This document shows, one piece after another, positions 46,845-63,760 of a stretch of DNA of 64,000 nt (position 1 is its first letter; the number at the start of each line of letters is the position of its first letter). The notes below the pieces were generated by a model. The model was not told where the DNA came from, did not search any database, and was given only the letters and a program-made list of their open reading frames with translations. The position numbers were made by a program, and so were the translations under genes. Source of the DNA: Amanita rubescens (Eukaryota > Basidiomycota > Agaricomycetes > Agaricales > Amanitaceae); assembly GCA_015039365.1 (NCBI GenBank), contig WION01000053.1:161480-225479 (forward strand). Reading direction: 5' to 3'.

Positions 46845-49096
46845 ATGGAAAATGATACCCAACCTTCAACTGCCCCTGGTTCCGGCCGGTCTTCTCCACG
46901 ACTTGACGCTGGCGAAAGCACCCCCGGAATTACCTTTACGCCCCGTCGCGCGATGGCTTCGTTTGATAATCTGGTCGCGCTGGCGAATCACCAGGAGCGG
47001 TTGAGGGAGGCGCGGAAGATGATGTGGAGGGATAGAGGAGAGCCTGTGGTGGAATTGGATAATCTGAAAGACTGCTTGAGGCATGCGGCAAAGGGTAGTT
47101 TTCGTGAGTTGAAGTTTGAGCTACTTTGCTTTTGGCGTTTGACGTAGTATGTACGAAAGGATCGGCAACCCTGGCATTTAATATTCGAGCCTGTGTTAAT
47201 TTGGTGCTGGCGTTGATGCGCTTGAATAGGGTACCAAGGTTTTTTCTTGTCCATCGAGTTGTATCAACGTTTTTTTCTGATTGGTGCTGTTAGAGATCAC
47301 CGTTTCGCGATGGTTAGGCATGCGGTGTTTGGTGAGGACACTTGGAGATTTGCGGCCATGCTAGGTGCGAGAAACTTTTATTCAGGCGCGACACGATAGA
47401 TTAACGCCCGCGTACATGTAGGGACCTTTACAGGACTTTACAAGTTTTTGATAAATGCGCTGCCAATATTTTTCCCTGCCATCAGCCCCGAGACTGAACA
47501 GTCAAAAAAGGCATCAACTGCTGATGGACCGACTCTGGACAACCCTGCTAAGACAGTGGAGGTTACGCTCCCTAAGCACAATGCTCGACTATCATTAAGC
47601 GCTCATGCACAACTTGTCTTTTTGAGGAAGAGAACGCGGAGATGGCATGCGGCATTGGCTGGAGCCATCGCTGGTGGTTTGGCCATCATATGGGAAAAGA
47701 GGAGCAGGAGAGAAATTGTCGCGCAGCAACTATTTGTCCGGTATGTTTCCCCACCTTTCCTTGTCAATGCAATGAATGACAGTACCTCAGCGGTCTTCAG
47801 GGATCCTATAATTCATTTACAACCAAACATAATATCCACATTCCTCACGGTGATGTATTATTGTTCTCGCTGGCGTAAGTATACTCGCCATCACAACCGA
47901 AAAAGTACTAAAGCATGTCGTAGATGTGGCCAAATTTTGTATGCGTTCCTACTTCGCCCAGATACCCTCGACAAGTCCTACAGGGCCTGGTAAGAAGCTC
48001 CTTGCTTTCGTATGATCATAATGAACTCCTTTTTTTAGGATAGGTCAGGCAGCCAAAGTTCCGCCCGGATGTCTGCGTATGAATTACGGTCTCGTAAAAG
48101 AAGATACGTTCGACGTGCGGGACCTAGACCAAATATGCGCGTTGTCGGTAAGCACCATTCTTCTCTTCTCTTTATCTCTTATCTCATAAGTCGTTTAGGA
48201 CATTACACCAACAAATCTAACAGATCTCAGTATTATGCGGGAGCAATTCTTCCCGTCTTCCTCCTCTCTAGATATCCCCCCATATCGCCCTAGATATGCT
48301 CCTTGCTCGGCAGTGCACCCTGCATTATCATCGTGCATGTCTGTTCCTCTTGATCGGTTCTTTGCCGTCTTCAAGTGGATGCTTCCTATCTATAGCGTTT
48401 TACATTTCGCCCCCGCGATATTGTTTAAATGGAAGTCCTTTATCCGAGATCCAGGAAACGTCCTCGTTAAATCTGGTTTGGGTAGCTTGAGAAGCTCGGC
48501 ATTCCTAGGAGTTTTTGTTATAATATACCAAAGTGAGTTGACAAACATTTTTATCGTCGCCCGATGAATGACAAGTACACGTCAGGCTTATTTTGTTATA
48601 AGCATTATCTCCATAGAGTTTTATCCGAACTGAAGCTATCATCATCCGCCTCCTCTAATCCGCTATCGAGGATACCACAACATGTGATTGACTACTTAGT
48701 TTCCAAATTGTCTTTTTGGTTCGCTGGCTTTGCAGCGGGACTGTCGTTATTTGTGGAGGAAAAGAGGCGGAGAGGTGAACTGGCCATGTATGTCCTGCCG
48801 AAGAGTTTAGAGAGTTTGTGGATTGCGGCGCGGGGGAGGGGGTTGGTATTCAGAACTGGCAAATGGGGCGAACCATTGGTAAGTGTAAGCGGGACGTTGG
48901 AGAGATCTGAATATAACGATATTTTTCAACAGTTGGCTACGATCGGAATGGGAATGGTCATGGTAAGTCTCTTCGCGTTTCGCCTAATGTCGCGAAGCGA
49001 ACTGAATTCCACTTTCAGAGCACTTACCAAAATGATCCACAACATTTATCTGGACTTGTTAGACGGATTCTATACCAATTTATTGGTCCCAATTGA
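46845..49096 (+). CDS. TMEM135-like multi-pass membrane protein, about 11 exons
   Basis: The start ATG at 46845 gives MENDTQPSTAPGSG. Joined exons read KDCLRHAAKGSF, then NIRACVNLVLALMRLNRVP, then GTFTGLYKFLINALPIFFPA, then WHAALAGAIAGGLAIIWEKR, RFFAVFKWMLPIYSVLHFAP, SFWFAGFAAGLSLFVEEKRR, AMYVLPKSLESLWIAARGRG, and end LATIGMGMVM plus TYQNDPQHLSGLVRRILYQF and IGPN. These are the hallmarks of the TMEM135 family (Tim17-like membrane proteins linked to peroxisomes, mitochondria and lipid storage in animals; also found in fungi). Last introns are GTAAGTGTAAG...CAACAG and GTAAGTCTC...TTTCAG. The 3' end was copied to 56311-56670. One early acceptor (near 47161) would be an unusual AAG. Confidence 0.85.
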
Positions 49097-49647
49097 GGCG
49101 AATTGGTGAGATATTTGACGTGCTCCATGTAATACTGTTGTCGAATTCTGATATTGTAGTTATGTCCCGTGGTCTCAGAACGAGCGCGCGAATCGCAGAA
49201 TCATGATATCTTAGACAGGTGTTGTCGACGCGCCAAGAAACGTCGATACTGGACGAAATGAGCAAAGATCCCTAAGTATGGTTCAGTAATGTATTTTCAT
49301 TCGAAATATTCTTTTGCTCGTACAGATAACCTGTATACCAACTCAATATAGCTCTGTAACTTAACTGATGAGGGACGCCAACAGTGTTCAGGCACCTTCG
49401 GATGTTTTCAAGGTGCGTACATGCAAGACGAGCCGAGGAGACAGACACCAATCGCTGCTGTTGGTACTAATCTAAGCTCCCGCCGACTTTGAGTTTGCTT
49501 GCTAGATCATCGCCACGCCATTTTGCCCCGCTCGTCCTCAATTTCAAGGCCTCGTTCTTCCCATATCACGCAGCTGCACTCTGAGAGTTATGTGTTTATT
49601 ATAATTATGTACCTTCAATACTTATATTGTAGCAAACACTCTGAGAG

Positions 49648-54386: not shown

Positions 54387-56310
54387 AAGCGCAGAGAAGA
54401 GGGCAGAAAGAAGAATACTGGAGATCTCCTTTTATATTACATTTGGTTCGAGTTCTCGGGTGATTAAGTTCAGTGCTAAAGTCTTGCGCAGACTTCAGCA
54501 CAGAAGCGCCCGATGACCAAAATGCTGTGCGTTCTGTAAATCTATAATATTAATAGGCATAATCCGGTCCGAAACAAGCGCTCTGCGAGGCCAAACTTCT
54601 AGTCCAAAGAATGGCAATGTGCACTGGATTTGATACTTCATTAGTTTTGCTCAGTGGTTGAACTCTCAGGCCGTCCTATCACCTGCATAGACAAGACAAC
54701 ACGAGAAAGCCACGCACCGAAAGCATTCTTGCATTCTATCATTTTCACTACGGTCCAGCCGATCAATTCCGATAGGGAGCTAACCGAAAGTGTCCAAGCG
54801 GCATGTGCAACTTGACGAACCTGTCAGAGTGCGATCATCGCCACGTGGCCCACGCCGTCAGCACTCTTCTCGCGCCTCGCCGCGTTCCTAACAAAACCGC
54901 ACCGCCCACATTCATCTGCTGCACACGGGCCGGCTTGCTCCAGCTCCTCCTCTTCGCCCGCCTACACCTGCATCCGTGATCCCCATCATCACCCGTCTCA
55001 TCCGTCCCCAAATGAAGGTGTCCGTCTCCAAATGAAGTTGTTACTCTCCGATCTTAATGCAAGGCAGTTCTGCCACTGCCCACTCATCCTTGCTTCAAGG
55101 CCACATTCCTCTCCCTCTTTAACTCGCTCTTGATTTCTGTGTGTGTCGTGAGCCACTCGGTATCGACGGGCTCCACTCTAACTAGACGGTGACTTATGTT
55201 CGGATTGAAAGGCAATTGTCCCGTGATTGCGTGAGCGAAGTCTCCAAAAACGTTATGCTGTCCGGGGCATTCTTGATTTCCGCCTTCTGCATCCTCAAAA
55301 CAACAGGATCGAGGGACTAGAAGAACCGTGGGATTCCGCTGAAGATGGAATAAACGCGCCGTAGCGTTTCGCAGTGATCCTGATCAACTTACGTGTTCAA
55401 GTCTTTGCGGGCGTAAAGTAAGCTGAAATGGATATTGACTATAAATATGTGGTTACTTTCACTCACCTTGTGAAATATAAAGGTCCCCATTTCCATGTAG
55501 GCATACAGCAGATCCTCGCCGGGTGCTCATGAGAAAAGGTGAACCAATGTTGAGGTAGCCACAACGACCCTGCCCTTACGAAGTTGCGGGTAAAATCAAT
55601 TTGAGCTTATCTCCGAGATTAAATATGTGAAAACGACAATAACCATGCACAACATTCCGAATTATTATCTAGCTCCGGAATGCGAGATTTCAACCTTCTG
55701 ACTCCTGTGCGGTCGAATATGCGAACGTATGCACCCCTGTCGCAGTAAATGGTGGTCATACCACTTACCAGTCGACGAAGTACACATATCAGAAAGACCG
55801 ACCCTCCCGGTGTATTACAGTAAATCCAGTAAGTCAAAATTATAGAATATATGTGCAATCGCGCACTGACCGACGCCAGGTTGGCCTGTGACAATCGTTG
55901 CATGACATGGATGGGAAAACCAGAAGAGCTTGCCAACACCGATCTTTATATTTCAGAACGTCCCAGAAAATCTCATAAATTGGAACAAGGAGTTTTGGGA
56001 CCTCGGTAGTGAATGATTCCTCTGACCTAGGAGATCGATAACTACCAACTCCAGCGTCTCCGAATTACCATCCAGTTCTGATGACAATGAGTTGGGGATC
56101 TGGACATAACGCCTGACAAATATACGCTCCCCACGCTGCCAAAAACTCTGGTGAATGGCGGGAAACTAAAATGACCATCTGTAAAACAACATCAGCACCA
56201 TGACTCACCCGGGCACAAGATGAATGTTATATACCTAGTTCTAAGCCATGGAATGCACGATTGGAGATGGGGGCATGGCATCTGCGCATTACATAACACT
56301 TGACCCCCTC
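54387..56310. other. Gene-poor stretch with a possible decayed P-loop gene
   Basis: On the minus strand at about 55620-55960 a fragment reads ATIVTGQPGVG and, after a possible intron, SVFLICVLRRLVSGMTTIYC. This resembles a GxxGxGK P-loop protein without a clear Lys-Ser/Thr. Flanks contain frame breaks. No other gene is supported. Confidence 0.3.
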
Positions 56311-56670
56311 CAAGTTTAGAGAGTCTGTGGGTTGCAGCGTGGGGGAAGGGTTTGGTAAGTGTAAGCGGGACATTGAAGAGATCTGAATATAACAATATTT
56401 TCCGACAGTTAGCTACGATCGGAATGGGAATGGTCATGGTATGTGTCGCGAAGCGAACTAAATTCCGCTTTCAGAGTACTTACCAAAATGATCCACAACA
56501 CTTATCTAGGCTTGTTAGACGGATTCTATACCAATTTATTGGTCCAAATTGAGGCGAATTGGTGAGATATTTGACGTGCTCCATGTAATACTGTTGTCGA
56601 ATTCTGATATTGTAGTTGTGTCCCGTGGTCTCAGCACGAGCGCGCGAAAGTCAGAATCATGATATCTTGA
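56311..56670 (+). pseudogene. Duplicated 3' end of the TMEM135-like gene
   Basis: It matches 48801-49215 closely, including both last introns (with small changes), the final codons LATIGMGMVM and TYQNDPQHL, and about 100 bp of downstream sequence. Relative to the source it has lost about 31 bp (TATTCAGAAC...GAACCATTGG), between repeated TTGGTA motifs. It lacks the first 80 percent of the gene, so it is a dead 5'-truncated duplicate. Confidence 0.85.
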
Positions 56671-57345: not shown

Positions 57346-60087
57346 ATGAGCAACGGACGTGTATGCAGATACTTTGGTACAACGGAAGGCTGTAAATACG
57401 GCGACAAATGTCGATTCTCCCATGTGGCAGAGGTCAGTGGCGCTATGCGGCACGCCTCAATAGCGCAAATTGACTTTATTTCCCTTCATAGAGCGCATCC
57501 TCACCCAAGAGTCCTTCCTCACCGGCCTCACCCAAGGCTGGTTTCTCTTCAGGGGTTCGTTCGATTGCCATTGCATCGACGAGTGCAGCCAACAATCGGA
57601 GGCCAACCATTCATGACGCCGCCTCCACGTTCAAGAAGCAGATTCCCTGTCAATTTTATCTTCAGGGACATTGTAACAAAGGAAATCAATGCCAGTGGAG
57701 TCACGAGTACAAGACGGTCAGGGTTTAATCTTCATCACGATTGAAAACTCGCGGGCTGACAGAAAGAACAGCAAGAAGATGTCGTCAAGAAGGAAGCAGA
57801 GAAGACCATCCAACGCATCGTACTTGGAGAATCAACTCTAGTCACGTGTGGTGCAGGCATGCAAGTGCAGCACATCGTATGCGGCTTTGATTCTTGTTAC
57901 ATTACCGTAAAGAATCTTCCGCAAGACGCTGGCCGTGCGGAAATCGAAGAGCTCTTCATTCAGCAGGGTGTAGACGCTACACAGTTCCACGTCTTCAAGA
58001 TCCGCACTTTGAATAGCAAAGTTGAGGCCAAGGTTTTCGTGGACGCCGAAATCGGCGAGACCTTGGCTGTTGGTCTCGACGGGATCCCGTTCAAAAACGA
58101 GATACTGGACACCGCGGTCGACCATGATACTGGCCCAAGTAAAATGGGCTCATCAGCACGGAACGTCAATGTGCTCACGGTATCATGGAAACAGCCGCCA
58201 TTTTTGCTCGACTCGAAAGCAGTCGAAGGAGGCCTCAGGCGCATCGTGGAAGGGATCGTTGGTTTCCAAACATACGAAGTTAGTCCAGCGAATCTTAACA
58301 GGGTAAACACGGAAGTTCGTATACGATTTGATTCATGGGAGATTGCCAAACGGGCGCATGATCGGCTACTACAGCCGAGGCCTGGTTACCCAAAGTTCTT
58401 CCTTCGGTTACCAAAGCCAATCGAATACTTTATCAAGATACCTATTGCCCAGTACCGTGCTCAACAAGCCCGTTGGGATTCTCTGTCTGAACAGGGCGAC
58501 CGCAAGATGGCACATGTAACCATCAAGGAAAACGCTGACCACGCATCTATCCGCGTCCTTGGGGAGGATAAAAAGACGGTTGGGCAGTTAAAAGTAAGGG
58601 TAGAGAGTTTGGTCGCTGGCGAGACATTGGATGCCTCGCTATGGCATAGGTCATTCTTGAGCAGGCCAGGACAGCAAATTCTTGACAACATCAGTACACG
58701 AAGCGAAACCTTCATACGATGCGATTGGAAAACGAAATCTCTGAAACTTTACGCTGATGGCCGTGCTAAGGAAAAGGCTTTGAACCTGCTTAAAGAGAGG
58801 GTGAAGAAATTGAACGAATCAGAGTTTTCGATCCCCATCAATCGAGGTGCAGTGCGCTTTTTCACGCGCAAGGGATTGGCTGTGTTGAGGGATGAATTGG
58901 GGGATGATGCGGTGACACTCGAGCTGATGCCATCTCCTCGATTGGTAATTCGAGGCGGCGAAGAGGCCCATCTTATCGTCGACCGGCTTATTCAGGAGTC
59001 ACGAACCAGTTACCAGCTCCATGCAAAGAACGCAGAAGATATGTGCCCTGTCTGCTTTGACGAACCATCTTCTCCTATACGGCTTGGTTGCAAACACATT
59101 TATTGCACCGAATGCATCCGTCATTTTCTCTTGACTGCTTCCGAGAGAAAACAGTTCCCTCTCGTTTGCGCGGGTGACGACGATCAATGCAAAGTGCCGA
59201 TTGCAATTCCCAAAATCCAACAGTTCCTTTCTCCGCAACAATTCAACGAACTGCTCGAGGCGGCTGTTGCCAGTTACGTAGAGAAACAACCGGACAAATT
59301 CCGATATTGTACGACAGCTGATTGCCAACAAGTGTATCGGCGAGGGACGAAAGCAAATACGTGCCCTTCCTGCCTCGCGAGCATTTGTACAAAGTGTGAT
59401 AAAGAGGCACATGAAGGCATGACTTGCGCCGAGCGTGAACTCCTGGACAATCCCGCAGAACAAGAACGTCTCAATGAACAATGGGCTTTAACTGCTGGTG
59501 CGAAGCGTTGTCCGAGTTGTCGTGTATATGTGCAAAAGACAGAGGGTTGCAACCATATGACGTGTCGCTGCGGTGTACACTTTTGCTGGATTTGTTCAGA
59601 GGTGTCGGATCCCAACTCTATCTATCTGCATATGAATACGGAGCATGGCGGTATCCATACCGCTGATATCCCGCAACCGATTCAAGCGATTCAACAACAC
59701 CCCCAACCGGTTCGAACGTACCAACAGCTCGCTGCAAACCAGCAGATTCGCGCGACCCAACCTGTCCGTGTAGACGAACAGATCCGGGCAGACCTTGAAT
59801 ATGCTCGGCGTCTGCAGCAGGAAGAAATTTTACGTGGTCGACATGCTGACTTGGGCAATCTGGGTCGTCTTCAACAAGCTATTGGCCAAGAAGGACCAGT
59901 TCGAGAAGCGATGAGGAGGATTCAAGCAAGGAGGGATGCTGAGGAAGCAATTCAGAGGAGACGAGCTGAGGAGCATCGTGCTGCTGAAGCGCAGCAACTC
60001 GCATGGAGACAGGCTGAGGAACGTCGTGCTGCTGAAGCGCAGCAACACCCACGGGAAGAGCGTGGAAGCTGGTGCATTATAATGTGA
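57346..60087 (+). CDS. CCCH-CCCH-RBR E3 ubiquitin ligase, tandem copy 1 (878 aa)
   Basis: Exons 57346-57432, 57492-57716 and 57763-60087 join in frame. Two CCCH fingers come first (CRYFGTTEGCKYGDKCRFSH, residues about 7-26, and CQFYLQGHCNKGNQCQWSH, about 78-98). An RRM-like region follows (HIVCGFDSCYITVKNLP), then a KH-like region (KVRVESLVAGETLDASLWHR). The RBR unit begins with RING1 near 531 (CPVCFDEPSSPIRLGCKHIY), followed by IBR (YCTTADCQQVY, CPSCLASICTKC) and RING2 near 685 with the catalytic Cys in EGCNHMTCRCGVHFCWIC. RBR ligases move ubiquitin through that Cys. The end is Gln/Arg/Glu coiled coil and a CaaX box, SWCIIM. RNA-binding plus ubiquitin ligase on a lipid anchor is inferred. 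Confidence 0.88.
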
Positions 60088-60545
60088 CCAAACCAGCCGT
60101 GATTCGTTTGTGTGATACTTGTTGTATTTTGCACGATAGCAGAGGGTAGTATAGTAGTCACTCCCGTGAGAATCTTGAATATGAATCATTTGGTTTTAAC
60201 TTTATCACGCGCGGATCAGGCGTTATCGCTGCTCAAGTACTTATCAATAACAGTAGCAGGCTTCAGGTATGGAGAACATTCTCTAGAACTAGGAATGCCA
60301 ACATCGGTGGGCGCCCAGTCAAGCTAGTCAAGAACGAATTCAATGGGAGAAGGTCCTTATCTCCAGTGGCCAGGTACATGATGTGCCTAACATAACCTTA
60401 ATGGCTATTCAGCGCTCAGCAATGTTAACATTCATAGGAGTTAGACGTTCGGTTATTACGTACATCGGTACCGTGATCTGATACTACACCATATTTGAAA
60501 CATCGTGCCAATCATAGTTGTCCCCTGAACCTGTGTCTACAGACC
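60088..60545. other. Spacer between RBR copies, including a repeated promoter block
   Basis: The block from about 60108 (TTGTGTGATACTTGTTGTAT...) to about 60325 (AACATCGGTGGGCGCC) recurs after the third fragment (63770-64000) and, diverged, before copy 1 (57030-57070). Confidence 0.6.
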
Positions 60546-63359
60546 ATGACAAAACGGGCCCGCGCGACGAGCAATTGGAAGAATGATCGCGTATGCAGAT
60601 ACTTTGGTACAACAGAAGGCTGTAAATACGGCGATAAATGCCGGTTCGCCCATGCGATAGAGGTCAGTAGCGATTTGCAGTGCAACCCCTACAGCTATAG
60701 TTTGATGTTTCTCTTCCAGAGCTCTCCGTTTGCCAGGATCTCTTCCTCATCCAAGGTTGTTTCGTCTTCCCAGCGTAATCCGTCCGATGAATGGAGACCA
60801 AAAACCGACGATAACAATGCCTCCATGACTTCGGAGAAGCAGACTCCTTGTCGGTTTTTCCTTCAAGGACATTGTAGGAACGGAAATTTATGTCGAAGGA
60901 GTCACGACTCGTTGGAGCACATGACGGTCAGGGTCCGATTTCGATCACGACGACAATTTGTAGGCTGATATAAAGGACAGCAAGAAATCATGAAGAAGGA
61001 AGCGGAGACCACCATTCAGCAGATCGTCTTCGAAGAGTCGACTCTCGTTACGTGCGGCGCAGGCATGCAAGTGCGGCACATCGTATGTGGTTTTGATTGT
61101 TGTTATATTACCATCAAGAATCTCCCACAAGGCGCTGACCGTGCGGAAGTTGAAGCCCTCCTCATTCAGCAGGGCGTGGACGCTTCCCGGTTCTACGTCG
61201 TCAACATGCGTACTTTGAATCATAACTGTGAAGCCAAGGTTTTTGTGGATGCCAACATCGGCGACTCGAGACTTGCCGCCGTTCTCAGCGGGAGGGTGTT
61301 CAGAGGCGGAAAAATCCCGGACGTTGCTATTGACGACGATTGGGGCTCGAGTAAAATGGCCTCATCACGTAGCGTCACTGTGCTCACGGTGTCATGGAAA
61401 CTTCCGTCAGCGACATATTTGGTTCACTGTCATAACAGGTCGCACACACAAAAGGTTATCGACGAGCTACACAACACCATTCGTCATGGCCAACGGATTC
61501 AAGCCGTGGTCGGAAGACGATATTTCCGTGGATATTATTATGCCAGATCGGTGATGGTCTCAGGTCTACCTGTGGGCGCATCGCTTGACGTAGAGAATCA
61601 CTGTTGCATGGTCACAGATATTACTTCACCAACTTTCAATGCCGAGGAAGTCGGGCTCGATCTCAGACGCGCTATGGAGGGAATGATCGGTTACCAAACG
61701 TATGAAGTAGGCTCAACGAATCCCAACATGGAAGTTCGTGTGCAATTTGACTCATGGGCCAATGCCGAACTGGCATATGATAGGCTGACACAACCACTAA
61801 AGCCTAGCTACCCAAACTTCGATCTTCAGTTACCACCAAGGCAATTCGAGTACACTATTGAGATACCTTTCACCCAGTACCGCGCCCAGAAAGTCCGCTG
61901 GAATTCACTTTCTAGAGGGACAGAAAACGGCGCATGCTTAAACATCGCGGTCATGGAAAACGCGAAGCACGTACTTGTCCGTGTCCACGGGGAAGATAAG
62001 AAGAAGGTTGGACAATTAAAAGTACGAGTTGAGCATCTAGTCGCGGGCGAAACGTTGGATGCGTCCTTATGGCATAGATCATACTTGTCCGTATCTGGAC
62101 GACGCGTACTCAATGATATCGGTAACCGGAGCAATGCCTACATAGGAATCGATGAGAAAACGCAATCTTTGAAACTTTATGCTGATGGTCGTGCGAAAGA
62201 CAATGCTTTGAAATTGCTCAAAGAAAGGGTGGAACTTGTGAACAACTCGAAATTTTCAGTCAATCTTGACCCAGTTGCAGCCTCTTTTTTCATGCACAGA
62301 GGAGTGGCTGCATTGAAACAGGAAGTGGGAGATCATGCAGTGGCGGTTCAGCTAACATCACCCACCCAATTGGTTGTCCGTGGCGATGAAAAAACCCGCC
62401 ACATCGTCGATCGACTTTTGGAGGAGTCTCGAACGGGCTTCCAGCCTCACACAACAAACGGAGAAAATATATGTCCTGTCTGCTTTGACGAACCATCTTC
62501 TCCACTGCTACTTGGTTGCAAACATGTCTATTGCACTGAATGCATTCAACATTTCCTCTTTTCCGCTTCCGGAAGGAAGCAATTCCCTCTCGTTTGCGCG
62601 GGTAACGACGATAAGTGCAAAGTGCCGATCGCGATCCCTGTGATCCAAAGGTTCCTTTCTCAGCAACAGTTTGTTGAACTCATCGAGGCGGCCGCTACGA
62701 GTTACATCGAGAAACACCCTGGCCGATTCCAATATTGTAAGACGGCTGATTGCAAGCAAGTGTATCGACGAGGGAAGACTGCACGTCCATGCCCTTCCTG
62801 CCTCGTGAGTATTTGTACAAGCTGTTATAAAAAGGAACACGATGGCATGACTTGCGCCGAACGAGAATTTCTGGACAATCGCGCGGAACAAGAACGTCGG
62901 ACCGAACAATGGGCTTCAACCTCTGGTGCGAAGCATTGTCCAAGATGTGACGTATTTGTGCAGAAAACGGATGGTTGCAACCATATGGAGTGTCGTTGTG
63001 GGGTACATTTTTGTTGGATTTGTTTACAGGTGTTCGACCGCCAGGTTATCTATCAACATATGAGGTCGGGACATGGGGGTATCTTCGGAATGAACCAACT
63101 GCAGCGTGCAAACCAGCAGATGCGGGCAGACTTGGAGTATGCTCGGCGTCTACAGCAGGAAGAAATGCTCGACTTGGGCGTTAGGCAGCTCCAGCAAGCC
63201 ATTCGCGAAGAGGAAGGACAGATTCGGGAAGAGAGGGAGCGGGGGGAAGAGCAGCGACGTGGGCAGGAAGAGAGGGGACAGGGGGGAGAGCAGCGACGTG
63301 GGCAGGCAGAGCAGCGACGTGCACAGGAACAACGCGGAGGCTGGTGCGTTATAATGTGA
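60546..63359 (+). CDS. CCCH-CCCH-RBR E3 ubiquitin ligase, tandem copy 2 (about 900 aa)
   Basis: Exons 60546-60662, 60720-60926 and 60981-63359. The plan is that of copy 1: fingers CRYFGTTEGCKYGDKCRFAH and CRFFLQGHCRNGNLCRRSH, RRM-like and KH-like regions, RING1 CPVCFDEPSSPLLLGCKHVY, IBR (YCKTADCKQVYRR), and RING2 with DGCNHMECRCGVHFCWIC, whose catalytic Cys is present. It has about 70 extra residues in the middle (around LVHCHNRSHTQKVIDELHNT to YYYARSVMVSGLPVGASLD), which look like a second RRM that copy 1 has lost. The tail is a Glu/Arg/Gln repeat (EERERGEEQRRGQEERGQGG) ending in the CaaX box GWCVIM. The copies have diverged considerably, so the duplication is old. Confidence 0.88.
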
Positions 63360-63514
63360 TTAAAACGTGCGGTGGTTTGTTCGCGTTATACTTACTTTGG
63401 ACTTTGTATTCTGGTGCCCTGAAGAATTTTGAACACGAGCTTTTTCTGCTATACATTCTGTTCACGGCTTACTAGACTCTGCCACGCACAATCCTATTAA
63501 AGTCACGAGGCCTG

Positions 63515-63760
63515 CAGACCGATCCGGGCAGACCTTGATTATGCTCGGCGTCTGCAGCGGGAAGAAAATTTACGTGGTCGATGTGCTGACTTGGGCAATG
63601 TGCTTCAACAAGCTATTGACCGGGAAGAACAAGGAGGAGAATTTAAGCAACGAGGGTTGCTGAGGAAGCAATTCGGAGACGGGCTGAGGAGTGTCGTCAG
63701 GCTGCTGAAGTACAGCAACGCGCACGGGAAGAGCATGGAAGCTGGTGCATTATAATGTGA
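63515..63760 (+). pseudogene. Third RBR copy: 3' tail fragment
   Basis: The sequence matches the last part of copy 1 (IRADLEYARRLQQEE region, then the Gln/Arg tail) and ends in the same SWCIIM codons and stop, but carries several frame breaks and internal deletions and has no RING region. It is followed by the same downstream block as copy 1, so it is a tandem unit that lost its body. Confidence 0.8.

Follow-up and report, generated by a model that had tools for sequence, protein, structure and literature searches.

The window analyzed here is a 64,000-nucleotide stretch of Amanita rubescens DNA (contig WION01000053.1, positions 161,480 to 225,479), and comparisons with the organism's own genome were made against its 75.7 Mb assembly. 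Two tandem genes and a degenerate gene fragment, all on the forward strand, were found between positions 57346 and 63760. Copy 1 (57346..60087; exons 57346-57432, 57492-57716 and 57772-60087) encodes 875 amino acids, and its spliced translation shows no differences from the deposited protein P0011. It contains two CCCH fingers (57364..57423 and 57648..57704), an RRM region (57880..58419, P0011 residues 141-320), a stretch modelled as three KH-like folds in a row (58402..59034), a RING1-IBR-Rcat (RBR) ubiquitin ligase module (59044..59652, presumed catalytic Cys codon 59548-59550), a tail rich in Arg, Glu, Gln and Ala that contains no Lys (59653..60072) and the C-terminal CaaX box CIIM (60073..60084). 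Copy 2 (60546..63359; exons 60546-60662, 60720-60926 and 60981-63359; 900 amino acids in our own gene model) contains an RBR module (62472..63077, presumed catalytic Cys codon 62976-62978), a charged tail, again without Lys (63078..63344), and the CaaX box CVIM (63345..63356). Both genes are intact and open throughout, have three analogous exons each, and share the order of two CCCH fingers, RRM folds, KH-like folds, RING1-IBR-Rcat and CaaX box. The fragment (63501..63760) is a frameshifted 3' remnant of a copy-1-like gene whose final codons read SWCIIM. An earlier sequence-only reading had claimed that both full copies and the fragment end in SWCIIM or GWCVIM; this is confirmed and its coordinates are exact, and the domain list given with it (two CCCH fingers, RRM/KH-like regions, RBR) proved broadly right.

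The deposited copy 2 protein (P0002) has a different 5' start and lacks the CCCH pair, so that the deposited annotation masks part of the copy 2 architecture. On the side where the fragment lies, contigs C90 and C123 carry a third tandem copy, and the contig of the window stops before that point. Copy 2 on C123 (G000:C123:50736-53114) has five stops within the match (three TGA and two TAA), and is either a defective allele or the product of misassembly.

To describe the family, three homology searches were carried out, giving 59 homologues (P0002 to P0060). After removal of an Ariadne-like match (P0026, 5e-20) and of P0054 to P0060, which cover 6-17% of the query, 51 were kept, three of them named A. 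rubescens (P0002, P0004 and P0011). The Rcat pattern is present in 47 of the 51; 39 of these 47 end in a C-a-a-X box, and X is Met in all 39. P0027, which fails the Rcat pattern, ends in CLVM and was recognised by its tail, bringing the CaaM members to 40. Among these 40, the Cys and the Met are invariant (100%), a1 and a2 are limited to I, V, L, T and M, and the residue directly before the Cys (-5) is Trp in 72%; the positions from -6 to -30 are variable, with no residue above 70%. The box is found in 14 named genera (Amanita, Tephrocybe, Hypsizygus, Galerina, Hypholoma, Pholiota, Tricholomella, Hebeloma, Gymnopilus, Mycena, Crepidotus, Roridomyces, Coprinopsis and Agaricus), as in the Coprinopsis cinerea homologue P0046, which ends in CTIM, and homologues of other genera at ~40% identity retain it. 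The box is absent from eight of the 47 (P0010, P0021, P0034, P0037, P0038, P0040, P0041 and P0048), four of which stop 20 to 28 residues past Rcat. In a quick family tree with 51 rows (48 family members and three own-genome paralogues), every larger branch has the box, and box-less rows are scattered at the tips without clustering. Because most Rcat-bearing homologues keep C-a-a-M, with its Cys and Met invariant amid a variable tail, this ending is not due to chance. Homologues without a C-terminal Cys, which would have spoken against the sequence-only reading, were looked for, and its proposal withstood this examination.

All three parts of the ligase module, RING1, IBR and Rcat, are present and in order, and the complete RBR could be aligned to ARIH1, ARIH2 and RNF216. 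C697 of P0011 is invariant in the alignment of 25 rows and aligned with the Cys of ARIH1 GGCNHM, which is the catalytic Cys of ARIH1; C697 is thus the presumed catalytic Rcat Cys. The N-terminal half carries predicted CCCH, RRM and KH-like domains. DEAH11-type KH models, run against 25 members with E up to 1, gave matches adjoining the RBR: three for KH_DEAH11 (best E 3e-4) and five for KH_DEAH11_2nd (best 0.0022). For P0011 the match to such a model is weak (E 0.066, 13.4 bits, cut-off 27). When the KH model was submitted to Foldseek, the KH domains of N4BP1 and KHNYN appeared at ranks 2 to 6 (E 1e-3 to 3e-3). A PARP12-type CCCH model gives a weak, sub-cut-off match (E 0.045) to exon sequence of copy 2. 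In addition, copy 1 (57772-60087) is missing, in frame, ~70 RRM-region residues present in copy 2, which seems to fuse pieces of two RRM-like units. On the strength of these predicted domains, binding of RNA is quite probable.

The stalk between the end of the Rcat pattern and the C-terminus spans 94 to 294 residues (median 155.5) and is rich in Arg, Glu, Ala and Gln; that of P0011 was modelled as two long helices (residues 754-795 and 812-862). Lys was counted from 40 residues past Rcat up to the box in the 40 CaaM tails (4663 residues). There are only 41 Lys vs 972 Arg, and 26 of the 40 tails have no Lys at all. The mean of Lys/(Lys+Arg) is 3.2% in the tails vs 38% elsewhere in these proteins, and the tail is lower in 40 of 40; as a comparison, 49 non-overlapping charged windows within the protein bodies contain 190 Lys vs 691 Arg. 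Lys makes up 0.0 to 0.8% of each 20-residue bin from the Rcat end on. This lysine depletion of the tail is a new observation here. Among the box-less homologues, the tail of P0034 has 14 Lys and that of P0041 has 7 Lys vs 54 Arg. The P0034 tail (Pholiota conissans) ends in a Lys/Phe/Leu-rich stretch, possibly an alternative route to the membrane.

Substitution rates were estimated by the Nei-Gojobori method with our own script, several cells having small counts; four of the comparisons involve copies 2 and 3. Between copies 2 and 3, dN/dS is 0.29 to 0.36 in the RBR, 0.66 to 0.80 in KH, 0.58 to 0.61 in RRM and ~1.2 in the tail. The same order of RBR below KH and RRM is seen for copy 2 between C473 and C90 (RBR 0.12, KH 0.59, RRM 0.52) and for the copy 3 genes compared with each other (RBR 0.17, KH 0.45, RRM 0.61). 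When copy 1 is compared with copy 2, the values are similar across the domains (0.24 to 0.32) and 0.41 in the tail. The value for copy 1 between C473 and C90 is 0.18 overall. Copy 1 is identical in C90 and C123 over the compared part, whereas copy 3 differs. These rates fit a recognition half (KH/RRM) that changes faster in the younger copies. Elsewhere in the genome, sister RBR genes (C633, C230, C90:371k, C123:91k and C727) share one common other ending without CaaX, the ending is GPIM in the paralogue at C278 and CIVM in a degenerate relative (C473:96.8k and C555), and further, weaker paralogues are present. The sister genes lie ~30-45 kb from the CaaX array on C90 and C123, and those at C633, C230, C90:368-376k and C727 adjoin long TPR-repeat genes. 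The TPR gene scanned (C633) matches TPR and NPHP3-type TPR and, weakly, DUF7779, and in this resembles fungal NLR-type proteins.

Further examination of the genome revealed a farnesyltransferase beta subunit, which matches the Cryptococcus enzyme at E 6.7e-51. ICMT-family matches were also found, but they offer weak support because the same family was matched in five of 14 control genomes. With a1 and a2 confined to I, V, L, T and M and X fixed as Met, the ending is as expected for a farnesyltransferase substrate, and CVIM is the box of K-Ras4B. By analogy, the C-terminal Cys of the family is very likely farnesylated, and membrane anchoring of the ligases is strongly inferred. The sequence-only reading, which had suggested an RNA-sensing ubiquitin ligase on membranes, possibly in defence against transposons or viruses, is thereby partly supported: the conserved C-a-a-M (39/47), the farnesyltransferase beta gene and the domain list speak for the membrane ligase, and the defence part is weighed below.

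The gene structure, the domains, the conservation of Cys and Met, the Lys depletion, the farnesyltransferase beta gene and the domain-wise rates were directly established, and on this basis the members of the family are probably RBR ubiquitin ligases that bind RNA and are attached to membranes through a farnesylated stalk poor in lysine. The way in which CaaX, RBR and RNA-binding families are known to behave leads us to infer the following sequence of events. Farnesyltransferase would modify the Cys of the C-a-a-M end and place the ligase on the cytosolic face of membranes, where the Arg/Glu-rich helix would serve as a spacer that separates the RBR head, together with the N-terminal RNA-binding array, from the membrane. 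With nearly no lysine, the stalk would escape ubiquitylation by its own ligase. The CCCH, RRM and KH-like domains would select an RNA or ribonucleoprotein (RNP) at the membrane, presumably triggering the ligase, and RING1-IBR-Rcat would pass ubiquitin via the Rcat Cys to putative substrates, proteins bound there close to the membrane.

Several known systems share parts of this design. TRIM25 is a ubiquitin ligase, and ZAP is characterized by a WWE domain and four CCCH fingers. ZAP-L (the ZC3HAV1 long isoform of vertebrates) likewise combines a CCCH RNA-binding end with a C-terminal CaaX; however, it has an inactive PARP domain in place of the RBR, and the mushroom proteins have two CCCH fingers rather than four. 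In the part of PMC8568172 available to us, the ZAP-L box CVIS is farnesylated and brings the protein to membranes, and the PARP domain and CaaX are required for optimal interaction with TRIM25 and KHNYN. By analogy, the family resembles ZAP-L and its partner ligase combined into a single chain, a likeness in design rather than shown descent. Membership of the ZAP (PARP13) family was rejected, as a profile scan of P0011 and seven other proteins gave no PARP-domain or WWE match. DEAH11 and DEAH12 carry an RBR, a few of the 25 family members scanned have DEAH11-type KH matches (E up to 1) next to theirs, and the homologue P0022 was named DEAH12 by its depositor. Unlike these helicases, the mushroom proteins have a CCCH pair and CaaX, and no helicase family was matched in P0011 and seven other proteins, nor among the 25 of 44 families listed for relatives; in the absence of a DEAH helicase core match, membership of this group was also rejected. 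ARIH1, ARIH2, RNF216 and RBCK1 share RING1-IBR-Rcat with its Rcat Cys, and are not known to have a CCCH/RRM/KH array or CaaX. RNA-binding ubiquitin ligases are a known kind, discussed as regulators in post-transcriptional control in the available part of PMC5707401; MEX3/MKRN-type ligases there have KH or CCCH within the same chain, but the named ligases with such domains are of RING type and no RBR-plus-CaaX form is described in that part. Lysine deserts that keep arginine have been proposed as a feature of ligases, and San1, Slx5/8, BAG6 and ANKIB1 are ubiquitin-proteasome proteins (ligases or partners) with long Lys-free stretches (PMC10169902, available in part); the mushroom desert differs in spanning Rcat to a predicted lipid anchor. 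The combination of RBR, CaaX and lysine-free stalk was not found described in the literature searched.

Regarding the neighborhood, window positions 8409-34016 hold retrotransposon regions of the copia and gypsy types (assigned by eye from translations). They contain long open frames, of which two were scanned and match RVT_2 and Ty3_capsid. A short frame upstream of copy 1 (56304-56552) repeats part of a larger frame at 48537-49109 (SLESLW...GLVSVSGTL.RSEYN; by eye), and therefore a neighbouring gene has been partly duplicated toward the array. The gene is reminiscent of TMEM135.

A number of observations weigh against the proposed membrane ligase or narrow it. Several divergent own-genome paralogues have no box. 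Sister genes without CaaX (C633, C230, C90 and C123) have tails 177 to 180 residues long with 0 Lys and 13 Arg, and because they are equally Lys-free, the lysine desert is associated with adjacency to this Rcat and not with the lipid, in line with the proposal made for lysine deserts of ligases (PMC10169902). Relaxed constraint explains the faster KH/RRM change as well as altered recognition does. Moreover, nearness to transposons is no evidence of action against transposons, and a defensive role against RNA elements is the most daring and least secure part of the reading, which we regard as doubtful, although it is compatible with the tandem copies, the stop-bearing copy 2 of C123 and the faster KH/RRM than RBR change in copies 2 and 3. 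Its most specific form, a single-chain mushroom counterpart of ZAP-L plus TRIM25, is speculative and rather unlikely: a farnesylated RNA sensor with its own ligase would sit at the endomembranes on which RNA viruses or the RNPs of retroelements assemble, its Lys-free stalk sparing the anchor while the foreign RNP is marked.

A substantial possibility, though short of an even chance, is a housekeeping or developmental regulator located at membranes, which would bind endogenous mRNAs there and adjust translation or RNP turnover without taking part in defence. The occurrence of the family in many mushroom genera, the purifying selection on copy 1 between contigs (dN/dS 0.18) and the regulatory roles discussed for RNA-binding ligases (PMC5707401, in the part available) favor such a function, but tandem copies, a copy with five stops and a degenerate fragment would be unusual for such a gene, as would a KH dN/dS reaching 0.80 in the comparison of copies 2 and 3, which relaxed constraint could also produce. 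It is improbable that the CxxM end escapes farnesylation and is kept for another reason, such as S-acylation or use as a docking motif. The Trp at -5 does indicate a preference beyond the CaaX core, and the lipid itself is proposed by analogy, but the narrow choice of a1 and a2 and the fixed Met are farnesyltransferase-like, as is the K-Ras4B box of copy 2. Finally, one fragment and one five-stop copy would suit decaying tandem duplicates whose conserved ends reflect mere recent ancestry; this is scarcely credible, being contradicted for copies 1 and 2 by their open frames, by an RBR dN/dS of 0.12-0.36 among copies 2 and 3 and by the ~40%-identity homologues of other genera that retain the ending.

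The membrane-held RNA-binding ligase, with a lipid-anchor signal on an RBR ligase and RNA-binding-type domains in one chain across mushroom genera, would be a new link between RNA recognition and ubiquitin at membranes. Its lysine-free stalk leads to a clear, mutable prediction of how an anchored ligase is kept from destroying the tether that holds it. Most discussion of fungal immunity against RNA elements concerns RNAi, and a ligase-based RNA sensor, if true, would be a second arm of this immunity beside RNAi.
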